Positions 1,159 to 19,556 are shown, counted from the first letter of the stretch. The stretch is DNA of 64,000 nt from Candidatus Edwardsbacteria bacterium RifOxyA12_full_54_48 (GCA_001777915.1 MFFN01000004.1:351632-415631); one strand, 5' to 3'. A program made the numbers and translations. Notes: a model not told the origin generated them from the sequence alone.

Positions 1159-2544
1159 CTACTTGTGAAACTTCTTTATGAACTCCTCCACCTCGGGAAC
1201 CCCGCCCTGGTATATCAGATACCCGTTATACGGCTCGCGCGGGGTGGTCTCGTCGCTGACCGGCGCCAGCATCATCCTGTTGACCTCCTCCCGATCCTGG
1301 GTCTGCCCCAGCACCCAGCCCAGTTTGATGTAGGCGGCTTCGGGAAGCATGTTCTCCAGAGGCACCACTCCCTTGGCCATCAGGTCGCGTCCGGTGTCGT
1401 AGACGAACATGTGGACGTAGCCCCACAGGGTCTGCACCGTCATGAAGATGTGAACCCCCTTGGCCACCGCCCGTTCGATGGCCGGGTACAGCGGCTTGTT
1501 GACGTGCCCCAGGCCGGTGCCGATGATGATGATCCCCTTGTAGCCGGCATCCACCATCGAGTCTATCATGTCCGGCTGCATGTTGGTGTAATAGTAGATC
1601 ATTCCTATCTTCTCTTCGAAGTAGGGCTTGATGGTGACCTGGCGGTCCTTGCGCCGGGGATGGTAATCCGGCTTGATGGGCCTGACCCCCTGGCGGGTGA
1701 CGGTGGCCAGCGGAGTGTCCCCGATGGTGCGGAAGGTGGAACGGTAGGAGGAGTGCATCTTGCGCACCCGGGTGCCCCGGTGCAGAAAGCCGTATTCATC
1801 GGAGGTGGGGCCGAACATGCAGACCATCACCTCGGCGATGTCCCCGTGGCCGGCGGCGGTGGTGGCGTGCATCAGGTTCAGGGCGGCGTCGGAGCTGGGG
1901 CGGTCGGAGGACCGCTGGGAGCCCACCAGCACGATGGGCACCGGCGGGTTCTGGACCATGAAGGTCAGGGCGGCCGCGGTGTAGTGCAGGGTGTCGGTGC
2001 CGTGGCCGATCACGATGCCGTCGATGCCGTTCTCGATCTCCTTGCCTATGGCCACCGCCAGGGTCTTGTACTGCTCCGGCCCCATGTTCTCGGAGAAGAC
2101 CGCGAACAGCTTATCGGTGGTCAGGTTGCAGATGTCGGCCAGCTCCGGCACCGCGCCGTACAGCTCGCCCGGGGTGAAGGCCGGGATCACCGCGCCGGTG
2201 CGGTAATCCAGCCGGCTGGCGATGGTGCCGCCGGTGCCCAGCAGTTTGACCCGGGGCAGACCGGGGGTGATGGGAAATTCCTTCTCCGGGATCTTGTAGT
2301 TGGCTTTCTTGTAGCCGGTCTCGGTCATCCCGGTGATGGTGGCGATGTCGATGCCGATATTGTAGCCGGTGGCAATCTTCAGCACGATGTGCTGGTCGTC
2401 GTCGTTCTCCGACCTCGGCAACACCGTGCCCTTGAAATCGCCCCGGCTGGTAACCACCTCGGCCTGTCCCCACACCCGGACGTTGAATTTCTTGAGGACC
2501 TCCAGCCCGGCGCCCTTGTAACCTTGGAATATGTCTTCGGTCAT
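1159..2544 (-). CDS. gatD: Glutamyl-tRNA(Gln) amidotransferase subunit D
   Basis: A 461-residue protein of the asparaginase family with the N-terminal extension (about residues 1-95) that separates GatD from plain asparaginases. GatD releases ammonia from asparagine or glutamine for GatE, which converts Glu-tRNA(Gln) to Gln-tRNA(Gln). The catalytic set is visible: Thr107 in GTGGTIAS, Thr183-Asp184 in HGTDT, and Lys262 in RVRKMHSS. Length matches archaeal GatD. gatE lies upstream on the same strand, with a small repeat-bounded GxxExxY remnant between them, and a terminator follows. In the literature GatDE is considered archaeal, while bacteria use GatCAB, so its presence among bacterial genes is notable. 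The family call itself is secure. Confidence 0.95.
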   Translation of the reverse strand: MTEDIFQGYKGAGLEVLKKFNVRVWGQAEVVTSRGDFKGTVLPRSENDDDQHIVLKIATGYNIGIDIATITGMTETGYKKANYKIPEKEFPITPGLPRVKLLGTGGTIASRLDYRTGAVIPAFTPGELYGAVPELADICNLTTDKLFAVFSENMGPEQYKTLAVAIGKEIENGIDGIVIGHGTDTLHYTAAALTFMVQNPPVPIVLVGSQRSSDRPSSDAALNLMHATTAAGHGDIAEVMVCMFGPTSDEYGFLHRGTRVRKMHSSYRSTFRTIGDTPLATVTRQGVRPIKPDYHPRRKDRQVTIKPYFEEKIGMIYYYTNMQPDMIDSMVDAGYKGIIIIGTGLGHVNKPLYPAIERAVAKGVHIFMTVQTLWGYVHMFVYDTGRDLMAKGVVPLENMLPEAAYIKLGWVLGQTQDREEVNRMMLAPVSDETTPREPYNGYLIYQGGVPEVEEFIKKFHK

Positions 2545-2558
2545 AGTTTGCCTTTTTT

Positions 2559-2914
2559 AAATGGAACACGGATCAGGCTGATTGAGCAGATCCGCGCTGA
2601 TTATTCTTTTGGGTGTATATTTTGCGCTTGAATTGGGGCTTCTTGCCAAAATTCATCAATAAACCAACATTAATGCCTGTGGCCTTCAAGTAATTGACAA
2701 GTTGCAGCTCATGCTCAACCGCTATTGTTTCCGCAGCCTTTAGTTCAATGATTATCTTGTCATCAACAATTATGTCGGCAAAATACTCACCAACTCTTTC
2801 ATTTTTAAAGTAAACGTTTATCGGCACTTGCTTCTTGCATTTTAAACCCAAATTGGTAAAGCATCTATAATCTCCGCGTAAATCTGCCTGATCCGTATTA
2901 TCCGTGTTCCATTT
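2559..2914. repeat. Inverted-repeat-bounded unit between gatE and gatD
   Basis: The unit is bounded by a perfect 15-bp inverted repeat, AAATGGAACACGGAT (2559-2573) and ATCCGTGTTCCATTT (2900-2914). Looser similarity continues inward on both sides (CAGGC.GATT and CGCGG/CGCGC blocks). It carries one truncated GxxExxY gene and no transposase. Similar single arms occur at 47985-48020 and 54413-54446, so this is one expanded member of a dispersed repeat family. Confidence 0.7.
2573..2851 (-). pseudogene. N-terminally truncated GxxExxY-family protein
   Basis: The frame encodes up to 92 residues from a TTG at 2851, including KCKKQVPINVYFKNERVGEY, a FADIIVDDKIIIELKA-type core and LLMNFGKK. This is the C-terminal two thirds of the GxxExxY family (usually about 125 residues, named after an N-terminal GxxExxY motif that is missing here). 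Codons upstream of 2851 stay open but only translate the flanking repeat. The last residues are also read from the repeat arm. The family fold resembles PD-(D/E)xK nucleases; its role is unknown. I treat it as a remnant carried by the repeat unit, though a short product could still be made. Confidence 0.65.
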
Positions 2915-2918
2915 TTTA

Positions 2919-4880
2919 TCAGATGCTTTTCATTAATTCCGGTAGTCCCACATTCCCCACCGCCATCTTTCTCAGCTGTCCCATGACCCAATGCTTTTCA
3001 GCCTCAGGCAGTTTCGAGGTCTTTATGTTTTTGTACTTGTCTTTCAGGAACGGGATCTTTGAAACTATCTCCTCCTTGGAGAACTGCTTGAAATCCAGGT
3101 TCACCAGCACCGAGCCAAAATCCATCTTGGGATACTGGTAGACCACCGGCAGCATGGTTTTAACTATCTCGGCATCCAGCTTGCTGGCGGTCACGTATTT
3201 GTACAGATCATAGATACGGTCGTATGAGAAATCCGGAGACCTTTGATAATGCCCCTCGATATATTTTAAATAATGCCCGAACAGGGCTCCCGTCCTTTTG
3301 GGGTCCTGGCCCAGTTCTTTTATTATTCTTTCGATGACCGGGTACAGGTTGTGGGTGAACAGATAGTGATGGGAATCCTCCGGCACCCCCCAGGTTTTCA
3401 GCTGGCGGTATCTTTCGATGATATCGGTGGGCAGGTCCTGGCCCAGTTTTTTGATATGGCTGTCCTCCAGCGGGATGGGCTTGGAGTCGGTGTCCGGATA
3501 CATCCGGTCGGCGCCGGGCAGCACCCGCTCGAAGATGGTGGTGCCGTCAGGCAGAGATTTGCGGGTCTCGTTGGGAACCCCGGAGAAGGCCATTAAGCAT
3601 CGTTCTTCGATGGTCTCCAGCGCCGTCTTGATGTCTTCCCCCGGCCCCCAGAAGACCAGCTGGGCGTCATCGGGCGAGGACTTCAGCAGGCTGCGGACCT
3701 GGTCCCAGTCGTTATCGGCCAGCATCGGATCCAGGTCCTCGGAACAGGCCATGTTGGGCCGTTCCAGACAGGCGATAACTTTGAGCCGGTCGGCGATCTC
3801 GCTGGCAAAGCATTTTCCCGGCTGGGTGAAGTGGGAAAGGATGCCGCCGAAGCCCGGCAGGTTGACCGCCATCACCTGGCTGCCGTTGTTTGACAGTTCC
3901 TTAAAGCGCCTGCTCTCCAGCTTGCTGATGATGGGTTTCAGCGGTTCGGACCTTGTCTTCCATTCTTTCTGCTGTTTCACTTGGTCCTTGAGCAGGTCGC
4001 GGATCTTCAGCAGGGCCCACTGGCGGAAGCACTCGTTATGGGTCAGTTCCGGGATCAGCTTGGTGCGCGAGACGCCCTTGATCTCCACCCGGGTTCCGCC
4101 CTTGCAGGAGACGTTGACATCCTCCCGGCCCGCCCCGATCCCGGTTCGCACCATCCCGGTGCTGCGGTTCAGAAAGCGGATGTAGTCGCAGGCCTCCATC
4201 ACCTCGTCCGGGTTCTTCATGTCGGGATAGGTGACGGTCTCGATCAGCGGCATGCCCAAACGGTCGGTGCGGTAGACCCTCAGGTGGCCGATATCCGACA
4301 CTTCGCGGCAGGAATCCTCCTCCAGGGAAAGCTGTATCAGGCGCACCTTCTTGTGCTTCAGGGGGATCTCCCCCTCCACCCCGATGATGGCGGTGCGCTG
4401 GAACCCGGTGGGGATGCTGCCGTCCAGGTACTGCTTGCGGGTGATGTGCACCTCGCCCACGATGTTCAGCTTGGACAGCAGGGCGATGCGGATGGCGATG
4501 TCCAGGGCCTCCCGGTTCAGGGGGAAGGGCGGGGTGTCGTCCACCTCGTAGGTGCAGGCGGTCCGGCTGTTGATGTGATAGACGATGTTCTTGCGGGTCT
4601 TGAACTCCATCAGGGCGGTGCCGTCGTACTCCCCCAGCTCCGATAGGGTGGGCCGCATGTGGCGGATCAGCTCGGCGTGGTATTCCTCCGGCTTCTGGAA
4701 TATTCCGGCCGGACAGCGGCAGAACAATTTTTGTTCGGTCAGCAGCTGCTGGTGCACCTCCAACCCGGACATGAACCCGATAGCCTCATAGGTCTGCTGG
4801 GTGGCCTGCTGGCGCGGCAGGTAACCCACTGACTGTTTGGTCTGGCCGTAATTTGCCCTGGGATCGAATCGGTTGTTCAT
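2919..4880 (-). CDS. gatE: Glutamyl-tRNA(Gln) amidotransferase subunit E
   Basis: A 653-residue GatB/GatE-family protein. The N-terminal signature IGFMSGLEVHQQLL followed by KLFCRCPAGIF is typical of GatE, which phosphorylates and transamidates Glu-tRNA(Gln) using ammonia from GatD. Length and the central insertion before the helical tail domain (around residues 400-520) also fit GatE rather than the roughly 480-residue GatB. The start was set at the ATG at 4880, because the open extension to 5015 crosses a terminator hairpin and has no conserved sequence. The ribosome site is weak. gatD follows after the repeat unit; no gatA, gatB or gatC is seen in the window. Confidence 0.95.
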   Translation of the reverse strand: MNNRFDPRANYGQTKQSVGYLPRQQATQQTYEAIGFMSGLEVHQQLLTEQKLFCRCPAGIFQKPEEYHAELIRHMRPTLSELGEYDGTALMEFKTRKNIVYHINSRTACTYEVDDTPPFPLNREALDIAIRIALLSKLNIVGEVHITRKQYLDGSIPTGFQRTAIIGVEGEIPLKHKKVRLIQLSLEEDSCREVSDIGHLRVYRTDRLGMPLIETVTYPDMKNPDEVMEACDYIRFLNRSTGMVRTGIGAGREDVNVSCKGGTRVEIKGVSRTKLIPELTHNECFRQWALLKIRDLLKDQVKQQKEWKTRSEPLKPIISKLESRRFKELSNNGSQVMAVNLPGFGGILSHFTQPGKCFASEIADRLKVIACLERPNMACSEDLDPMLADNDWDQVRSLLKSSPDDAQLVFWGPGEDIKTALETIEERCLMAFSGVPNETRKSLPDGTTIFERVLPGADRMYPDTDSKPIPLEDSHIKKLGQDLPTDIIERYRQLKTWGVPEDSHHYLFTHNLYPVIERIIKELGQDPKRTGALFGHYLKYIEGHYQRSPDFSYDRIYDLYKYVTASKLDAEIVKTMLPVVYQYPKMDFGSVLVNLDFKQFSKEEIVSKIPFLKDKYKNIKTSKLPEAEKHWVMGQLRKMAVGNVGLPELMKSI

Positions 4881-4951
4881 ATTAAAAAATTTAAGATTTT
4901 GAGTGCATAAACAGTTAAGAATATTACAAAATCGCCTATAAGTCAATAAAA

Positions 4952-4983
4952 AATGCTGCCGCCCAATTTCGAGCGGCAGCATT
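4952..4983 (-). terminator. Intrinsic terminator after the TMEM43-like gene
   Basis: Stem AATGCTGCCGC (4952-4962) with GCGGCAGCATT (4973-4983), followed on the minus strand by TTTTTTATT. It is a strong rho-independent terminator ending the gene at 5005-6138 and separating it from gatE. Confidence 0.85.
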
Positions 4984-5004: not shown

Positions 5005-6138
5005 TTACTTAGCAATCGCTGGAGCCGCGGGCTTCTTTTTTAAATTAAGAAAAACTATCAGCCCGGCTATCAGGGCCAGCACTATCAGCAGAACGATTAT
5101 ATTGTGGGCGATCATGGAGACGATGATGGTGGCGGCCGACAGCACCAATGCGATGGGAAAGGCTGCCAGGCCGATCACGAACCGGCTGGCCGAGCCCAGG
5201 AATGGCAGAACATCAAGAATGGTGTGCAGCGGGCCGGTCAGCATCAGCAGCCCGATCCACATCATCAGGAATCCGATGATGCGGCCGAGCCATCCGGCCG
5301 CCTTGTATTCGCCCTTCAGAATGGCGATGGCCTCGTCCCTGGCCCCCAGAAAAGCCCGGTAGAATTTTTTCTCACCTTTATAAAAATACGGATCAAGCAT
5401 CCCTCCGGACAGCTTGCCGAATACCGTGGCCCTCCGGCCGGATGACAGGGCATAAAACGACAGCCGGGTATCGCCGATCTGCGGATCGGCCAAAGAACCC
5501 TGCCCCTGGAACAGATATTCTTCGGTGGCGCTGTATCCTTTGGTCTTTTCCAACAGGATCTTTCCGCCTCCCAGGTCCAAGGGCTCGGTCGGCGGCAGGT
5601 TCAGGCGCCCCATATCCAATTCATAAACCCCGGCCCGGGCCTGTCTGGCCGTGAAGGTCCGGGAGGAAATTTCCGGCGGGGGGTTGGCATGGCCCTCCGG
5701 CTGCTTGAAATCCCCCGAGTTCTCCGGGTTTTCGGTCCATCCCTTTTCGTAGCTGTAGGTCTTGGTGGTGGTCTCGCTGCCTCCGGTGTTCTTCTGGGTC
5801 TTGGTGCTTACCCGTTCCCTCCAGGCGAACATCTCGGCCCGGCGGGTCAGGATCAGATAATTTCCCGGGGTGATGAAATCGGGATCGCCCACCAGATCGA
5901 CGGTCTCCAGCGGCCCGGTGACCGATGCCAGCTGTCCCTGGGCCTTCTGATCTATCGACGATGGCGATGCAATGACGGCCTTCTGCGCCAGCTTGGCGAA
6001 ATCGGTCCGGCCCTCTGTTTTCCACAGCACTATAAAGGAGATGATGAACAGGGCCAGCCCCACCAGCACCCCGACAAACGAGTTCAGGATCCTCTTGCCC
6101 CAGCCGGTGGTGGTAACTTCGGTCAATTGATCGGTCAT
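5005..6138 (-). CDS. TMEM43-family membrane protein
   Basis: A 377-residue protein with an N-terminal membrane segment (about residues 18-42), a large non-membrane middle and several hydrophobic segments near the end (about 285-370), the layout of the TMEM43/LUMA family. Features such as the LVGDPDFITPGNYLIL block, a repeated aromatic YSYEKGW region and the C-terminal helices support this. The bacterial members have no established function; the eukaryotic protein acts in the nuclear envelope and ER. The gene stands alone with its own terminator and is divergent from rbfA. Confidence 0.8.
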   Translation of the reverse strand: MTDQLTEVTTTGWGKRILNSFVGVLVGLALFIISFIVLWKTEGRTDFAKLAQKAVIASPSSIDQKAQGQLASVTGPLETVDLVGDPDFITPGNYLILTRRAEMFAWRERVSTKTQKNTGGSETTTKTYSYEKGWTENPENSGDFKQPEGHANPPPEISSRTFTARQARAGVYELDMGRLNLPPTEPLDLGGGKILLEKTKGYSATEEYLFQGQGSLADPQIGDTRLSFYALSSGRRATVFGKLSGGMLDPYFYKGEKKFYRAFLGARDEAIAILKGEYKAAGWLGRIIGFLMMWIGLLMLTGPLHTILDVLPFLGSASRFVIGLAAFPIALVLSAATIIVSMIAHNIIVLLIVLALIAGLIVFLNLKKKPAAPAIAK

Positions 6139-10718: not shown

Positions 10719-10744
10719 GATAAAATTCAATGACAAGGAGACCT

Positions 10745-12937
10745 ATGTCCAAGAAGATTCTTCTGGGCATGATCATTCTTTTTGCCGCCCTTTCAGCCCG
10801 GGCCAATGACAGCCTTAATGTGCGATCTGTCGGTAGTTGGCCGTTCTACCGCTGCTTGAGCGTAGCGCTGGATACTACCACCGCTCAGAAACTAGCCATT
10901 ATGGGCACCGGCGGGGGGCTTTTTATTGCCGACATAACCGATCCTTTGCGCCCAAACAAAATCGGCGAAATAAACCTGAACGGCTCCTATAGCTACATAA
11001 TCAAAACCAGGGATCATTATGCGTATTGCCTTTCAGATAGTTTAGGTCTTTTAATTGTAGACTATTCCAATCCATACTCACCCGTACTGGCCGGACATTG
11101 TGCCTATAAAGAAGGAAAGAATCAAGCATTGGCCATCAGCGGAAACTATGCTTTCATTTGCATAAACTATTATGGCATAAAAATAATAGACATCACGGAC
11201 CCAACCAAACCAGTTGATAAAAATTATTACCCCTGCAACGATTTTAATATAGATATTCTAATAAAAGACTCTTTAGCCTATTTTGCGACATATGAGTTCA
11301 AAGTATTGAATATCAGCGATCCTGAAAACCCCGTTCAAATCTGGAATGATGATACACAATCCGGGCAGTTTGCGATATCCGATACTTTTTTGTATCTCGG
11401 TAGTGGAAGTATATATACATACAACATTTCTGAACCAGCTAATCCGGTTAAGGGCGGATCGGGAGGTACGGCCTACTTCGGTTTTTCGATATATGACACT
11501 CTGATCTTCGGCGGAGGAACTGGATTCAATGAAGGATTTTACATAAACAGCCTTTCCGATCCCAACAGCCCCGTAACAATAGGGCAATGTTCAACCAATT
11601 ATTTCAGAGGGTTAGCCGCTTATAACGGCTATGCCTATGTGGCTGACGACAGCAAAGGCTTGAAGGTTGTTGATATCAGCGATCCCGCACACCCCGTGAT
11701 AGTCGGTCATTGCCCCACACCAAGAAACGAAGATAACGGCATACTTTACCAAAATAATTATATTTACCTTCCGGCAATGGAAGGTGGCTTAAGGATGATA
11801 GATGTCTCCGATCCTTCCTCGCCGATCGAAACCGGCTGCTCATTTTACCCCAACAGAGAGAATCAAGCCCTTGCTGTGGTTGTCAGAGATACCATCGCCT
11901 ATGTATCAGACCGATCGAACGGGCTGAGGGTGATAAATATTACCGACAAAGCCAATCCTGCCGAGATCTGTTCTCTTTCCTTAAAAGGATATACTTATGC
12001 AATGGCTGACAAGGATACACTTCTGTTTATAGCCTTATGGCCGGAGTTTTTTAGCGGGGATTCTTCCAGCATCAGGGTGATAAATATTGCCGATCCGAAA
12101 AATCCCAGCGACATAGGTCATGTTTGCTTGCCGCGTGATGCCATGGATATTACGATAAAAGATAATAGTATGTTCGTTTCAACATTTAATACCACCCTGT
12201 CAACCATTGATATATCCGATCCTGCCAATCCGGTGATAACCTACAGTAACGACACATTGGGGTTGGGTTGGAACCAATCTTTAAAAGACACTATTTTATA
12301 TTTGGCTAATGATAATAAAGGGTTAAGCATAATCAACGTTGCCGATCCCATAAACCCCGTAAAGATCTCCTCAGTTCCTCCTTTTAGCCGCACTACCGGA
12401 GTATTCGTTGATTCCGGCTTTGCTTACATGGTGGATGATACCCTGGGGCTTAAAGTGGTCAATATCACAGATCCTTCAAATCCTATTGTTACCGGCTATT
12501 ACCTTTTCGATTACGATCCAATTTATGCTGTTATTTTTTTCCCCTATGTTGATGTGACAGCCAAAAATAATAATATATTCATCACCCACCCGGCCAATAT
12601 TCTCCAAGCTTTGGAATACTACGGCCCGGAGGCCGGTGTTTCTTCAGATAATATTGATAACGAAAAGAGACCCCTTATCTTCCTGCTAAAAGACGCCTAC
12701 CCCAATCCGGCCCGGAGCAGGGCGACCATCAGCTATCAACTGCCGGCCAAATCTACGGTCAGCCTGAATGTATATAATGTAGCCGGACAGCTGGTCCAAT
12801 CAACAGATATGGGCGCCCAGCAGCCGGGATATTATAATATTCCCTTTAAGACCGACAAACTTTCCTCCGGGGTATATTTTTATAAGCTGACGGCCGGAAG
12901 CAACAGCCGGACCAGGAAACTGGTGATTTTAAAATAA
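10745..12937 (+). CDS. LVIVD-repeat secreted protein with T9SS sorting domain (paralog 1)
   Basis: A 730-residue protein with signal peptide (cleavage near ARA-ND) and about 13 LVIVD repeats of the form GLKVVDISDPAHPVIVG, a beta-propeller-type family, followed by a type A T9SS C-terminal domain that opens at DAYPNPARS and ends KLVILK. Such tails direct export through the type IX system and surface attachment. Start at 10745 rather than 10730, because AAGGAG lies just before 10745. It is first of four tandem paralogs sharing the DSLNVR.VGSWP opening. Ligand or function is unknown. The T9SS machinery itself is not in this window. Confidence 0.85.
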   Translation: MSKKILLGMIILFAALSARANDSLNVRSVGSWPFYRCLSVALDTTTAQKLAIMGTGGGLFIADITDPLRPNKIGEINLNGSYSYIIKTRDHYAYCLSDSLGLLIVDYSNPYSPVLAGHCAYKEGKNQALAISGNYAFICINYYGIKIIDITDPTKPVDKNYYPCNDFNIDILIKDSLAYFATYEFKVLNISDPENPVQIWNDDTQSGQFAISDTFLYLGSGSIYTYNISEPANPVKGGSGGTAYFGFSIYDTLIFGGGTGFNEGFYINSLSDPNSPVTIGQCSTNYFRGLAAYNGYAYVADDSKGLKVVDISDPAHPVIVGHCPTPRNEDNGILYQNNYIYLPAMEGGLRMIDVSDPSSPIETGCSFYPNRENQALAVVVRDTIAYVSDRSNGLRVINITDKANPAEICSLSLKGYTYAMADKDTLLFIALWPEFFSGDSSSIRVINIADPKNPSDIGHVCLPRDAMDITIKDNSMFVSTFNTTLSTIDISDPANPVITYSNDTLGLGWNQSLKDTILYLANDNKGLSIINVADPINPVKISSVPPFSRTTGVFVDSGFAYMVDDTLGLKVVNITDPSNPIVTGYYLFDYDPIYAVIFFPYVDVTAKNNNIFITHPANILQALEYYGPEAGVSSDNIDNEKRPLIFLLKDAYPNPARSRATISYQLPAKSTVSLNVYNVAGQLVQSTDMGAQQPGYYNIPFKTDKLSSGVYFYKLTAGSNSRTRKLVILK

Positions 12938-12946
12938 GGATAAGCT

Positions 12947-15157
12947 ATGTTTAAAAAGATATATCTACTTTTGCTCCTTGGATTGGCCGTCTCTTCTGTC
13001 GCACATGCCGCCGACAGTCTTAACGTACGGACCGTTGGCAGCTGGCCGTTTGGCTATACATACTCTGCGGCCACCTGCAGTATAGGCGGCCACCATATTG
13101 CAATAGTCGATAACGACGGCGGCATTATGACTGTTAACATTGACACCCCAACTAATCCATACTGGCTGGGCGAAGCAAGGATAACTGGCCAAAGAACAAC
13201 CGACCTATTGGGCCATCACCGAAAGGCAAGAATATATGGAAATCACGCTTTTCTAGCTTTAGCCGAACTTGGTCTATGTATTATTGATATCAGCGATCCT
13301 GCAAACCCAAACATCTGCAATCAAATGTCGACGCCGGGTTATATCGTTGATATCGCTGTGCGTGGAAGCTACGCATATGCAGCCGACGATTCCTTTGGCC
13401 TTCGTGTCGTGGACGTATCTGATCCTTTCAACCCCGATACAGTAGCATTGGTGCCATCAACGGAAGGGTGCTATAGCCTGGCCATAAATGACACCTTGCT
13501 ATATATAATCAAACAAAACTGGCCAGATTTCATTCCAACAGTCCTGTCCTTTAATATTACCACGCCCAATAATCCAATATTTATTGATAGCCTGCAGTAT
13601 TTATGCGGTGGTTCTTTGGCAATCAAAGACACCTTGCTCCTCACTGGCGCGATGGATGTTTTGAATATAAGCAACCCAGCAGATATTTTTCTTATTACTT
13701 CCTTTATGCTTTCCGGCAACGGAGAAATAGCCATTCACGATACCCTAGCCTTTTGCCCCAATGTGGGCGGATTTGCTGGTTTATATATTACTTCCTTTTC
13801 CGATCCGGCCAACCCCTACATTATTACTTCTTATGATACTCCTGGTTATACTCGTGATATTTATTCTGATAACAATCTATTATACGTGTCGGACGACATA
13901 GGTGGGCTAAGGGTCATTGATATATCTTCACCTAACACTCCCATTGAAATAGGCGCTTTTAATTCGCCATCACCCGTATATGGCAATAACGTTATGTTGG
14001 CAAAGGATGACATACTTTACTACCCTACCGGTGATTTATATTCACTGGATGTTTCCGATCCCGCGGAGCCACACACCACCAAATGGGGAAAAGCTTTGGG
14101 TAATGCCCACGCCGTCGCTTTAAAAGATTCAATTATATTAACCATTGATGATGCATATGGATTTAAAGCAATGCAGGATGTTGGAAACAAATATTTATCG
14201 GTTGTTGACTCACTCCCCATGTCCAGTAGTAATTGTTGGGATATTTATTGTATGGATACCTTAGCTTTGGTTGCTTCTTCAGAAAGCCTTTTCGTAATCA
14301 ATGTATCAGACGCTGGAAACATTCATATAATTGGCCAGTGTGGCATACCGAACGCAACCTCTTATGCTGCGGCAGTTACCGCAACCAGCCAATATGCCTA
14401 TGTGGCTGCAGGCACCTCAGGTTTTTATATTGTGGATCTCTCAAATTTAACAAACCCAGAGATAGTTGACACTATCAATATTGGTATGGTCTGGGACCTA
14501 ACCATCGATAAAGATATTTTATGCTTGGCTAACGATTTAAATGGATTATTGCTGATGAATATAGACATACCCGACAGCCCCAAGGTGTTAAGCGTCTTTG
14601 ATACATCAGGAAAAGCTATGGCTATTACCGTGGATTCACTTTTTGCATATTTGGCCGATGACTCGGCCGGATTGAGGATCATTGACATCAGCGAACCTAC
14701 CAATCCGTTTGAAACAGGTTACTATGCAATGGAAACCGTCTCCTTTCCTTTAAACAATAGGGCTGTTGGCGTGGCAGTTGGAAATGGTAATATCTTCGTA
14801 TCGCACTATGCCGCTGGTTTAAAAGTTTACCAATACTATGGCCCGGACGCAGGGATCTCAACCGATGATCATGACAAAGACATAAACAGGCCCCTCACCT
14901 TCCTGCTGAAAGACGCCTACCCCAACCCTGTTCGGAGCAAGGCCACCATCAGCTATCAACTGCCAGCCAAGGCCGAGGTCAAATTGAACCTTTACAATAT
15001 AACCGGACAGCTGGTCCGATCAACAGATCTGGGCACACAGCCGCCGGGATATTACAATGTGCCTTTGAAGACTGACAAATTATCTTCGGGCGTTTATTTT
15101 TACAAGCTGACGGCCGGAAATGACAGCCAGACCAGGAAACTGGTGATTTTAAAATAA
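12947..15157 (+). CDS. LVIVD-repeat secreted protein with T9SS sorting domain (paralog 2)
   Basis: A 736-residue paralog beginning 9 bp after the previous stop. Signal peptide ends near AHA-AD, followed by the family opening DSLNVRTVGSWPF. About 12 LVIVD-type repeats can be counted (for example VSDPFNPDTVA, ISEPTNPFETG). The sorting domain runs from DAYPNPVRSK to KLVILK. The DNA from the end of paralog 1 through its start (AAATAAGGATA.GCTATG then TTTAAAAAG) is almost repeated before paralog 3, marking the duplication unit. In the tail this gene shares a distinct sequence variant with paralog 4. Confidence 0.85.
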   Translation: MFKKIYLLLLLGLAVSSVAHAADSLNVRTVGSWPFGYTYSAATCSIGGHHIAIVDNDGGIMTVNIDTPTNPYWLGEARITGQRTTDLLGHHRKARIYGNHAFLALAELGLCIIDISDPANPNICNQMSTPGYIVDIAVRGSYAYAADDSFGLRVVDVSDPFNPDTVALVPSTEGCYSLAINDTLLYIIKQNWPDFIPTVLSFNITTPNNPIFIDSLQYLCGGSLAIKDTLLLTGAMDVLNISNPADIFLITSFMLSGNGEIAIHDTLAFCPNVGGFAGLYITSFSDPANPYIITSYDTPGYTRDIYSDNNLLYVSDDIGGLRVIDISSPNTPIEIGAFNSPSPVYGNNVMLAKDDILYYPTGDLYSLDVSDPAEPHTTKWGKALGNAHAVALKDSIILTIDDAYGFKAMQDVGNKYLSVVDSLPMSSSNCWDIYCMDTLALVASSESLFVINVSDAGNIHIIGQCGIPNATSYAAAVTATSQYAYVAAGTSGFYIVDLSNLTNPEIVDTINIGMVWDLTIDKDILCLANDLNGLLLMNIDIPDSPKVLSVFDTSGKAMAITVDSLFAYLADDSAGLRIIDISEPTNPFETGYYAMETVSFPLNNRAVGVAVGNGNIFVSHYAAGLKVYQYYGPDAGISTDDHDKDINRPLTFLLKDAYPNPVRSKATISYQLPAKAEVKLNLYNITGQLVRSTDLGTQPPGYYNVPLKTDKLSSGVYFYKLTAGNDSQTRKLVILK

Positions 15158-15166
15158 GGATACGCT

Positions 15167-17338
15167 ATGTTTAAAAAGATATATCTATCTTTCCTACTGG
15201 TCGCATCCTTTTCGGGCCTGGCCTATGCCTCGGCCGACAGCTTAAGGATGCGGACCGTCAGTTCATGGCCGTACAGCATTAACGCCGCAACTGCGGCGGC
15301 GACCATCAATGGTCATGATTACCTGCTGGCCGGCATGGGCGGCGGCATATTCATTTTCAACATCGATTCTCTGGACGCACCATATAAGGTATCCGAGGCC
15401 GCCACGCAAGCCAGTTATATAAAAGACATCGCCGTAGCCGGAGATTATGCATACCTGGCAGCGTCAGATTGCGGTTTATGGATTTTGGATATCAGCGACC
15501 CATTAAATCCCTACGTGACCGGCAATGTCGATCTTCCTGGTTATGCGGTTCAGGTCAGAATAAATAACAACCACGCTTTTGTCGCTTCCTGTTTTTCCGG
15601 CGTCCGAATCGCAAACATATCCGATCCCTACAATCCTTACGAAGCTGGCTATCTTGACAATGGTGACTATTTTTACGGCTTAGATGTCAACGATACCCTG
15701 CTTTACACCGCAGGAATGACAAACGGATTAAAGATTTACAACATATCTTCTCCTGCCATGCCAGTTGAAATAGGATACAATGACAGCACCAGCGATCTTC
15801 GCTGTGTTTATTATAAAGGGGGCTATCTTTATGGCGGCAATACTGCGGAAACGGTAATATTTGATGTGTCTGACCCGACAAATCCGGTTATTACCGGCAC
15901 TGGCGGCTATGGCGCTTATAGAATGGCCATCTTGGACACTATTATTTATGGGACTATCAATAGTTACTTTTATTCCACGATCAACATCAGTGATCCTTCC
16001 TCCCCAGTTCTGGTTGAAACCAATCCCACCGATTGGTTCGCTACATTTGTAACAATATTTAAGAACCGATTGATTGTCACCACCGAAAAATATTTTTCCC
16101 TTCAGGATATCACCGATCCAGTAAACCCCGTAGAAACCTATCGCTTTGACTGCCCTGTTATCTACGGTACAGGCGCAGTCAAAGACAGCTTTGCTTACAT
16201 GCCTTCGGATTACATTCATATCATCAAAACAACAGAAACCCAGTACCTCCAAGAAGTGAGTTCTGTTAAAAGTATTGCCAGCGGTTTTTCCAGTATTTGT
16301 ATAAAAGATTCCTTAGCATACTTGCCTGATTTCATTTATGGCTTGCAGGTGATCAACATAGCCGATCCCTATAATCCTATCGTTCTGGATTCGGTATATT
16401 GCGCGGGTTTTTGCAATTATGTAGCGATAACGGATTCTTTTGCTCTTTTAACACAATATAACAATATTAAGGTGATCAATGTCTCCGACCCTTCCAACAT
16501 ATTTGTTGTTGACTCGTTTATAACAAACGACATAGCCTATAACATATGTATTGACGGTTCGCTGGCCTATCTGGCAAATAGCGGTTATGGGTTGCGCATT
16601 TACGATATTACCAATCTTCCCGCCATAACAGAGATAGGTTATTATGACACCCCCGGGACGGCTCTTTATGTGGCTGTCCAGAATGGAATGGCTTATGTGG
16701 CCGACGGAGACAGCGGTATGCGCATAATAAACGTCTCCGAATCAACAACCCCTGTCGAGCTGGGACACTTTGTGATACCGAACCCGGAAGATATGTTCTA
16801 CGGCGCCAACTCGCTGGCCGTCAAAGACAGCCTGGTCTATATCTCCTATGATACCTTGGGGGTCAGGGTCGTCAACGTTTCAGATCCCGCCAATCCTACG
16901 GAATCAGGCTATTATAAAAAGATCCCCTGGAGTTCTTATAACTTTGGATGCAGCGCCAACGGTCTGACTTTGGCCGACAATAAGGTTTACGTCTCTTACT
17001 ACCAATACGGCCTGCAGGTGTTCGAATACACCAGCCCCAGCGGGGTGACAAACAATAAGAACGAGAGCAGGATATCTTCATTTCTGTTGAAAGAAGCCTA
17101 CCCCAACCCAGCCAGAGGAAAGGCCACCATCAGCTATCAACTGCCGGCCAAATCTACGGTCAGCCTGAATGTATATAATGTGGCAGGACGGTTGGTCCAA
17201 TCAGTGAATATGGGAACCCAACTGCCGGGATATTACAATATTCCATTGAAGACCGACAAACTTTCCTCCGGGGTATATTTTTATAAGCTGACCGCCGGAA
17301 GCAACAGCCAGACCAAGAAACTGGTGATTTTAAAATAA
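15167..17338 (+). CDS. LVIVD-repeat secreted protein with T9SS sorting domain (paralog 3)
   Basis: A 723-residue paralog, 9 bp after paralog 2. It carries a signal peptide (AYA-SAD), the opening DSLRMRTVSSWPY, about 13 LVIVD repeats and the sorting domain from EAYPNPARGK to KLVILK. Its repeat region differs substantially from its neighbours, while parts of the tail are identical at DNA level to paralogs 1 and 4 for more than 50 bp. This suggests exchange between tails with free divergence of the exposed part. Confidence 0.85.
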   Translation: MFKKIYLSFLLVASFSGLAYASADSLRMRTVSSWPYSINAATAAATINGHDYLLAGMGGGIFIFNIDSLDAPYKVSEAATQASYIKDIAVAGDYAYLAASDCGLWILDISDPLNPYVTGNVDLPGYAVQVRINNNHAFVASCFSGVRIANISDPYNPYEAGYLDNGDYFYGLDVNDTLLYTAGMTNGLKIYNISSPAMPVEIGYNDSTSDLRCVYYKGGYLYGGNTAETVIFDVSDPTNPVITGTGGYGAYRMAILDTIIYGTINSYFYSTINISDPSSPVLVETNPTDWFATFVTIFKNRLIVTTEKYFSLQDITDPVNPVETYRFDCPVIYGTGAVKDSFAYMPSDYIHIIKTTETQYLQEVSSVKSIASGFSSICIKDSLAYLPDFIYGLQVINIADPYNPIVLDSVYCAGFCNYVAITDSFALLTQYNNIKVINVSDPSNIFVVDSFITNDIAYNICIDGSLAYLANSGYGLRIYDITNLPAITEIGYYDTPGTALYVAVQNGMAYVADGDSGMRIINVSESTTPVELGHFVIPNPEDMFYGANSLAVKDSLVYISYDTLGVRVVNVSDPANPTESGYYKKIPWSSYNFGCSANGLTLADNKVYVSYYQYGLQVFEYTSPSGVTNNKNESRISSFLLKEAYPNPARGKATISYQLPAKSTVSLNVYNVAGRLVQSVNMGTQLPGYYNIPLKTDKLSSGVYFYKLTAGSNSQTKKLVILK

Positions 17339-17354
17339 TTACTTAAGGGAGCTT

Positions 17355-19556
17355 ATGTCCAAGAAGCAAATTCTGGGCATATTCTTGCTGCTGTCAGGTC
17401 TTTCGGCCCATGCCACTGACAGTCTTAACGTAAGGACTGTTGGCAGCTGGCCGTATGGTTTGAGCCGTGCGATCGCGGTAGATTCCATGGACGGCCACAG
17501 ATACGCCTTTACCGGTTTCGGCGGCGGGATATTCATTTTTGACGTGGATACTCCGTCAATGCCGGTCAAGATCGGCGAAGTCGCCACAGACGGATATATG
17601 ATCCATCAAATTGTAATAAACAACGGCCATGCCTATCTGGCCTGTTATGATAAAGGCCTGTGGATAGCGGATATCAGCGACCCACACAAACCTACCATCA
17701 CCGGCAACTGTCCGCTTCCGGGGTTGGCGGTGGATCTGGCGATATCTGGCGGCTTTGCCTACGTGGCCGGTGATACGACAGGGCTTTTTGTTGTCGACAT
17801 TTCCGACCCCGTTGCGCCGGCATTGGCTGGTAGTTATAATGATGGCGGCTGCGTATGGGGCATACGGGTCAGGGATACCATTGCCTATGTGGCCGACGGT
17901 GACAGCGGACTATCCCTGCTGAACATAAAAACACCTGGGATCATCAGTGAAATAGGCCGTTATAATGCCGTATATGCCTCTTATGTTAGCCTAGCCGGTC
18001 GCTATGCCTATATTTCTAGTGTGCCTTGGAATTATGGCAGCACTGATGTTATTACGGTCGTGGATATCGGCAATCCAGCCAACCCATTGTTTGCCGGATC
18101 GGGCGGGGAGGCCGCCACCCGGGTTGAAATTTATGATTCATTGGCATTCAGCGGAGCATATAATAATTATCAGATATTTATCAATACCATTTCAGATTCC
18201 ACGCACCCTCAGCTTAAGCAGAATTACACTTCCAGCGAATGGGGCAATGCCTGGCATTTTGCTTATTCGCCGGGTTACATTTATGTAGCAGATGAACGCA
18301 GGGGCATGGTAATATACGATATTTCTAATCCTGCAAACATATTAGAGATCGGCCAATACCAAGTGCCAAATTTCATTACCCTTGCTGTGGCTGATAGTCA
18401 TGCGTACCTGCCTTCCTACGGATTAAGGGTACTTGACGTGAGTGTTCCAACCAGTATTACCGAGCAAGGTGTCTGTTTTTTAGATACCAGCAATCACTTC
18501 GGGGCCTTGTGGGATGTTGATGTCAGGGATTCATTGGCCTACGGCCTGCCGGGTGATTCCACTATGCTTACATTCAACGTGAAAAACCCATATACGCCCC
18601 AAATAGTTCATACCCTTACGTTACCAGTTAAGTATGTATATTATTTTACCATATGTGATACGTTCGCCTATATTTCAAGCGATACCGGTTTAATATTTGT
18701 AAATATTGCCGATCCGGAAAGTCCGTTTGTAATAGGGCAATACCACGGTATTGCTGATCCTGTGAATATGACCGTCCGGAATGGCGTTGCCTTTGTGGCT
18801 GATTATTACGCCGGCCTAAAAATAATTGATGTCAGCGACCCGGCAGCACCGCATGAGATCGGACATTGCGATATAACGGGGGATGTGATTGATGTCGCAA
18901 TAGAAGATACTTTCGCCTACATTACCGCCATGAATAACGGTTTGCGGATAGTGAACATCGCTGACCCAAGCAATCCGTTTGAGGTCGGTAATTTCCAGAT
19001 GTCTGCCGATTCGTGGATAGGCGCATACGGTGTAGAAATAAAAAATAATTTAGCCTACGTAGCCTGGGATACCTTTGGGGTTAGGGTTATTGATGTCGCT
19101 GATCCAAACAATCCGATAGAGATAGGTTATCATGATAATAACTCAAGCCCGTATTACACTTTGGCCTGGGATATAAAATTGTACGATGGTTATGTGTATG
19201 TGGTTTATGAAAACTGGGGTCTTCAAGTCTATGAATACTACGGCCCGGAGGCCGGTGTTTCTTCAGATAATATTGATAACGAAAAGAGATCCCTTGTCTT
19301 TCTACTAAAAGACGCCTACCCCAACCCAGCCAGAAAAAAGGCCACCATCAGCTATCAACTGCCGGCCAAATCTACGGTCAGCCTGAATGTATATAATGTA
19401 GCCGGACAGCTGGTCCGATCAATGGATATGGGCGCCCAGCAGCCGGGATATTTCAATATTCCATTGAAGACTGACAAATTATCTTCGGGCGTTTATTTTT
19501 ACAAGCTGACCGCCGGAAGCAACAGCCAGACCAAGAAATTTATCGTTTTAAAATAA
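17355..19556 (+). CDS. LVIVD-repeat secreted protein with T9SS sorting domain (paralog 4)
   Basis: A 733-residue paralog, 16 bp after paralog 3, with GGGAG before the ATG. Like paralog 1 it starts MSKK and has the opening DSLNVRTVGSWPYG; about 13 LVIVD repeats follow (VSDPAAPHEIG, VADPNNPIEIG). The linker YYGPEAGVSSDNIDNEKR before the tail is the same as in paralog 1, so 1 and 4 are related over this stretch, while the DNA near 19465-19510 matches paralog 2. The last residues (KFIVLK) differ slightly from the other three. recN follows after only 10 bp. Confidence 0.85.
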   Translation: MSKKQILGIFLLLSGLSAHATDSLNVRTVGSWPYGLSRAIAVDSMDGHRYAFTGFGGGIFIFDVDTPSMPVKIGEVATDGYMIHQIVINNGHAYLACYDKGLWIADISDPHKPTITGNCPLPGLAVDLAISGGFAYVAGDTTGLFVVDISDPVAPALAGSYNDGGCVWGIRVRDTIAYVADGDSGLSLLNIKTPGIISEIGRYNAVYASYVSLAGRYAYISSVPWNYGSTDVITVVDIGNPANPLFAGSGGEAATRVEIYDSLAFSGAYNNYQIFINTISDSTHPQLKQNYTSSEWGNAWHFAYSPGYIYVADERRGMVIYDISNPANILEIGQYQVPNFITLAVADSHAYLPSYGLRVLDVSVPTSITEQGVCFLDTSNHFGALWDVDVRDSLAYGLPGDSTMLTFNVKNPYTPQIVHTLTLPVKYVYYFTICDTFAYISSDTGLIFVNIADPESPFVIGQYHGIADPVNMTVRNGVAFVADYYAGLKIIDVSDPAAPHEIGHCDITGDVIDVAIEDTFAYITAMNNGLRIVNIADPSNPFEVGNFQMSADSWIGAYGVEIKNNLAYVAWDTFGVRVIDVADPNNPIEIGYHDNNSSPYYTLAWDIKLYDGYVYVVYENWGLQVYEYYGPEAGVSSDNIDNEKRSLVFLLKDAYPNPARKKATISYQLPAKSTVSLNVYNVAGQLVRSMDMGAQQPGYFNIPLKTDKLSSGVYFYKLTAGSNSQTKKFIVLK

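Follow-up and report, generated by a model that had tools for sequence, protein, structure and literature searches.

Reviews of 2021 and 2022 describe the amidotransferase GatDE as archaeal only (PMC8007984; PMC9499178). A 64,000-nucleotide stretch of DNA from Candidatus Edwardsbacteria bacterium RifOxyA12_full_54_48, here called the window, contains a candidate gatE-gatD pair, which raises the questions whether this is a genuine bacterial GatDE and what it does in its host. An earlier note had offered two answers, that the organism makes Gln-tRNA by GatDE or that it carries both GatDE and GatCAB. No report of bacterial GatDE was found in the open-access papers searched, which include few from subscription journals; the databases probably hold annotations of bacterial GatD and GatE, since the NCBIfam models would assign these names.

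The following elements were found at the locus.

4952-4983: terminator-like hairpin of 14 pairs followed by a T run, 3' of the gene upstream of gatE
4918-4946, minus strand: promoter-like TTGACT-N17-TATTCT upstream of gatE, from a consensus scan
2919-4880, minus strand: gatE, first gene of the pair, 653 aa, ATG at 4880; GatB/GatE catalytic domain carrying an AspRS-like (GAD) insertion, followed by a C-terminal region (helical part and tail)
2573-2851, minus strand: GxxExxY (PDDEXK_3) ORF between gatE and gatD, N-terminally truncated
1159-2544, minus strand: gatD, 461 aa; GatD_N and asparaginase-type glutaminase domains

The mechanical ORF of gatE extends back to a TTG at 5015. The promoter-like element (one found upstream of gatE, 0.6 expected) comes just after the hairpin, and together they weakly suggest that gatE may have its own transcript. 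The ORF between the two genes matches TIGR04256 at 85.8 bits over positions 38-114 of the 116 in the profile. A full-length copy occupies the equivalent site in another Candidatus Edwardsbacteria locus (L059), whose GatE is 89% identical to that of the window. This ORF is a passenger and lies outside the enzyme.

Sequence, residues and fold all support assigning the pair to the GatDE family. In a curated model search the gatD product scored 492.6 bits with NF003217 (cut-off 310) and 490 bits with TIGR02153 (cut-off 324), and it matches the Pfam domains GatD_N, Asparaginase and Asparaginase_C. The gatE product scored 389.8 bits with TIGR00134 (cut-off 319.55) and, at 455.8 bits, fell 0.2 bits short of the cut-off of 456 for NF003107. 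The top PDB matches of both proteins by sequence are the archaeal GatDE crystal structures 1zq1 (Pyrococcus abyssi) and 2d6f (M. thermautotrophicus), which also rank first in a fold search with the AlphaFold model of the window GatE (mean pLDDT 75.9). The residues and motifs named in the earlier note proved correct: Thr107, Thr183, Asp184 and Lys262 of GatD align to T101, T177, D178 and K254 of M. thermautotrophicus GatD and are kept in all GatD aligned, and both GLEVHQQL and KLFCRCP are present in GatE. Residues E41, H43, E187, E188, D189 and E214 of GatE are invariant in 50 of the 50 bacterial GatE and are the same in archaeal GatE and in GatB. The window pair is like archaeal GatDE in having both subunits, the checked catalytic residues, the GAD insertion and, as it appears, the C-terminal helical and tail region. 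With bacterial GatCAB it shares the catalytic domain fold of GatB, and a few states of GatE, Tyr151 and Glu226 among them, match those of GatB, not those of archaeal GatE; unlike in GatCAB, the ammonia source GatD is asparaginase-type rather than amidase-type.

The locus belongs to a real bacterial chromosome, and the earlier note was right that complete gatD and gatE lie in it among bacterial genes: the flanking genes in the window (TMEM43, rbfA, DHH/DHHA1, NAD kinase) are all bacterial. The genes are arranged in the same way, with 85-90% DNA identity, in G003, a congener assembled independently; therefore the locus is not a chimera. The contig is 958 kb long, in a host genome of 2.74 Mb on nine contigs that is 100% complete with 0.12% contamination, and the trees of both subunits place the proteins in a bacterial clade. 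Apart from GatDE having been thought archaeal we found nothing in favour of a contig chimeric with archaeal DNA, which the earlier note had considered, and we give that explanation practically no credence. A plasmid or phage origin was also considered and rejected, as the searches returned just weak GatB-like matches and one GatE from a haloarchaeal megaplasmid, and no viral contig; a scan of viral_contigs with an archaeal GatE query found no GatE. In another part of the window, at 10730-19556 on the plus strand, lie four tandem paralogues of about 730 aa each that carry LVIVD repeats and, at the C-terminus, a Por_Secre_tail (type IX secretion).

In the GatE tree rooted with GatB, the archaeal group consists of Mth, Pab and Natrinema together with an archaeal-type protein from genome G063 (support 100/98), and the bacterial group comprises 50 rows (support 96/89). 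In the GatD tree rooted with asparaginase, the 36 bacterial GatD all group together in a single clade (100/99) with a long stem and short internal branches. Archaeal sequences in these trees number three for GatE and two for GatD, and each outgroup sits on a long branch. GatD of the window shares 63-74% identity with GatD from distant bacterial families and 46-48% with archaeal GatD. This pattern fits one origin, possibly by transfer from archaea not represented in the trees, with later spread among bacteria. The label "archaeal-type" in the earlier note is imprecise, as the window proteins differ from those of 2d6f and 1zq1 in forming a separate clade in both trees. Genome G063 (loci L152 and L219), labelled bacterial and 82% complete, has GatDE of the archaeal type in the order gatD-gatE, with GatD 42% identical; contamination with archaeal DNA or an independent transfer may explain this.

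GatDE is no local oddity; it is real and widespread in bacteria. The earlier note had named a common occurrence of GatDE in the phylum as something that would refute its idea, and GatDE is indeed common there: GatE is present in nine of ten Edwardsbacteria and occurs widely beyond them. Two exact peptide patterns, run against 84,980 species genomes, gave 550 confirmed relatives, and the best 80 of the 550 are from Edwardsbacteria and, for the remainder, almost all from Bacteroidales or their relatives (62-68% identity). Of 386 genomes sampled across bacteria (10 Edwardsbacteria and 376 others), 39 had a GatE exceeding the cut-off, namely eight Edwardsbacteria, the ninth being fragmentary, and 31 of the 376 others (about 8%), the latter from 25 families. 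GatD exceeded the cut-off in nearly all genomes with GatE and in none of the tested genomes lacking it. The two genes lie together with gatE first, unlike the archaeal order, in the window and in 69 of the 80 loci as called; tblastn added two. Among the loci compared, gatE and gatD are the sole widely shared genes, so that no operon partner could be used as a functional clue. An apparent GatE-GatD fusion in L134 was rejected as an artefact, its junction being a run of N.

The host does not need this enzyme for its standard Gln-tRNA. The analysis of the host genome consisted of targeted searches and of inspection of selected stretches. GatCAB is absent from it: there is no GatB_Yqey domain, and the sole GatB_N match is gatE itself. 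It has exactly two class Ic synthetases of the Glu/Gln type. One is a bacterial GluRS; the other, a canonical GlnRS, scores 696 bits with TIGR00440 and aligns with the E. coli and P. aeruginosa enzymes over its full length. The host further encodes AsnRS, a bacterial AspRS and glutamine synthetase. Given GlnRS, the bacterial GluRS, AsnRS and glutamine synthetase, the host can form its standard Gln-tRNA and Asn-tRNA without GatDE. Thus neither answer of the earlier note is supported, since the host combines GatDE with GlnRS and lacks GatCAB; of the two absences that the note had taken as a sign of real use, that of GatCAB was observed, but GlnRS is there at full length. Glutamine synthetase occurs in all ten Edwardsbacteria, and we therefore rejected glutamine auxotrophy, or a missing glutamine synthetase, as the reason for keeping GatDE. 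GluRS of the host has Arg at the Tth 358 position. We dropped this residue as a marker of discrimination, since Arg is found there in most genomes with GatE and without GlnRS as well.

Both tRNA-Gln genes of the host (UUG and CUG) have U1-A72, unlike archaeal tRNA-Gln, described with A1-U72. The presence of GlnRS also sets this host apart from the hosts of archaeal GatDE, GlnRS being said to be missing from all archaea (PMC9499178). No suppressor was found among the 42 host tRNA hits, each of which was read. An extra host tRNA gene with anticodon GCU (L050:101-174, G000:C4:306680-306753; 56.8 bits as tRNA) has no long variable arm and no encoded CCA, and its two top acceptor pairs are broken; a regular tRNA-Ser(GCU) is present besides.

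Almost all bearers of GatDE possess a second full pathway to Gln-tRNA. GlnRS exceeded the cut-off in 43 of 48 Bacteroidota and relatives bearing GatDE and in nine of ten Edwardsbacteria, the tenth having it in two fragments. With GatB status defined by a second TIGR00134 match (a match count, several genomes being incomplete), genomes without GatB have GlnRS in 15 of 19 cases with GatE and in 14 of 18 without it (Fisher p = 1.0), and those with GatB in 6 of 14 and 6 of 20 cases, respectively (p = 0.49). As GlnRS is equally frequent in bearers and non-bearers, GatDE is an extra enzyme and no substitute for GlnRS. Four genomes have GatE and neither GatB nor GlnRS. Three of them are simply explained: one is 83% complete, in one even GluRS is missing, and one has a congener with GlnRS. 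In the fourth, G205 (loci L265 and L208; 98% complete), GatDE was found and GlnRS and GatB were not, and gltX is followed on the same strand by tRNA-Gln(CUG) and tRNA-Glu(CUC). This genome is a candidate for a bacterium depending on GatDE.

The two parts of GatE differ in conservation. Mean identity across bacteria is 67% for GatD and 63-73% for the catalytic parts of GatE, versus 19% for its tRNA-binding C-terminus. The conserved catalytic domains indicate that activity is probably under selection, and we infer that the complex is active in the host. We read the contrast as pointing to constant chemistry with tRNA recognition that may be changing or loosened. The window GatE has no match to PF02637 (the YqeY-like tail), whereas GatE of L196 does; its alignment to TIGR00134 reaches position 598 of 622. 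Between the bacterial clade and the two crystallised archaeal GatE, 21 positions are fixed differently, several of them adjoining active-site motifs in the sequence.

One bacterial family includes three genomes in which gatE is immediately preceded, on its own strand, by a tRNA gene with encoded CCA and a tRNA-Gln-like acceptor (43.8-49.2 bits as tRNA).

L195:8635-8709, plus strand: suppressor tRNA, anticodon UUA
L196:8948-9022, plus strand: suppressor tRNA, anticodon CUA
L158:3196-3270, minus strand: suppressor tRNA, anticodon UUA

A radical-SAM/SPASM gene follows gatE in the two of these loci that were covered that far; their outer flanks differ. Stop codon usage around the suppressor tRNAs appears normal. 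No tRNA was found near gatDE in the window or at the GatE loci of other lineages scanned. A search near gatDE in the window also revealed no hidden tRNA or riboswitch, all Rfam matches being far under the gathering score.

What, then, could GatDE do beside GlnRS? By the chemistry of the family, GatD would release ammonia from Gln or Asn, and GatE would use ATP to activate tRNA-esterified glutamate and then amidate it. The substrate would most likely be Glu-tRNA(Gln) misformed by GluRS, so that GatDE would serve as a repair or backup system for glutamine decoding and not as its main route. This is the simplest function, and we put at about even the chance that the pair is a genuine GatDE of the bacterial clade, accessory to GlnRS, kept through Edwardsbacteria and likely engaged in repair or backup of Glu-tRNA(Gln). 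On the other hand, given the redundancy with GlnRS, a minor repair role hardly explains long retention across phyla, and a constant substrate would not predict the low conservation of the tRNA-binding C-terminus. Both the retention of GatDE where GlnRS or GatCAB handles normal Gln codons and the divergent C-terminus would be accounted for if GatDE served a non-standard tRNA of its own, such as a variant or a suppressor form of tRNA-Gln, specific to each lineage and providing Gln at special codons or outside normal translation. The UUA, CUA and UUA tRNAs are the strongest hint obtained here. However, they come from one family, the host and the other lineages scanned yielded no such tRNA, and stop codons around the suppressors appear to be used normally; we regard this reading as possible but less likely than repair or backup. 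Somewhat more speculative is its extension to the entire clade, by which bacterial GatDE would be a separate subfamily amidating Glu on lineage-specific tRNAs, stop-codon readers included, for special decoding and not for ordinary Gln codons.

The redundancy of GatDE for Gln-tRNA in nearly all bearers, together with the 21 differing positions, would also agree with its conversion into a tRNA-independent amidotransferase or a glutaminase/asparaginase. We consider this unlikely: the helical and tail region that contacts the tRNA elbow appears to be retained, the last ~170 residues of the window GatE being predicted to fold with high confidence, and GatE keeps the terminal motif MGxLRK/MGxVMK. 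It is still less probable that the host makes its Gln-tRNA mainly through GatDE, with GlnRS as an auxiliary, although the host lacks GatCAB and G205 makes such use possible in some bacteria. GlnRS of the host is full length and occurs in all Edwardsbacteria, and genome G001 of the same genus, 99% complete, has neither gatE nor gatD and retains GlnRS. The data do not support GatDE as an archaeal-style Gln-tRNA route of this host. The accessory role preferred here has a parallel in Deinococcus, Thermus and Bdellovibrio, which keep GatCAB beside GlnRS and AsnRS (PMC4206432), an amidotransferase retained despite direct synthetases; there GatCAB also acts on Asp-tRNA(Asn), whereas here the enzyme is GatDE in a host with AsnRS and glutamine synthetase.

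One of the two reviews builds on the restriction of GatDE to archaea, deriving from it a post-LUCA division of the two amidotransferases and archaea that never gained GlnRS (one of PMC9499178 and PMC8007984). The archaea-only premise is contradicted by a GatDE clade of bacteria that was sampled in at least 25 families outside Edwardsbacteria and occurs beside GlnRS. The coexistence of GatDE and GlnRS is now directly testable, and it raises the question of the role of a second amidotransferase in cells that do not require it for Gln-tRNA.
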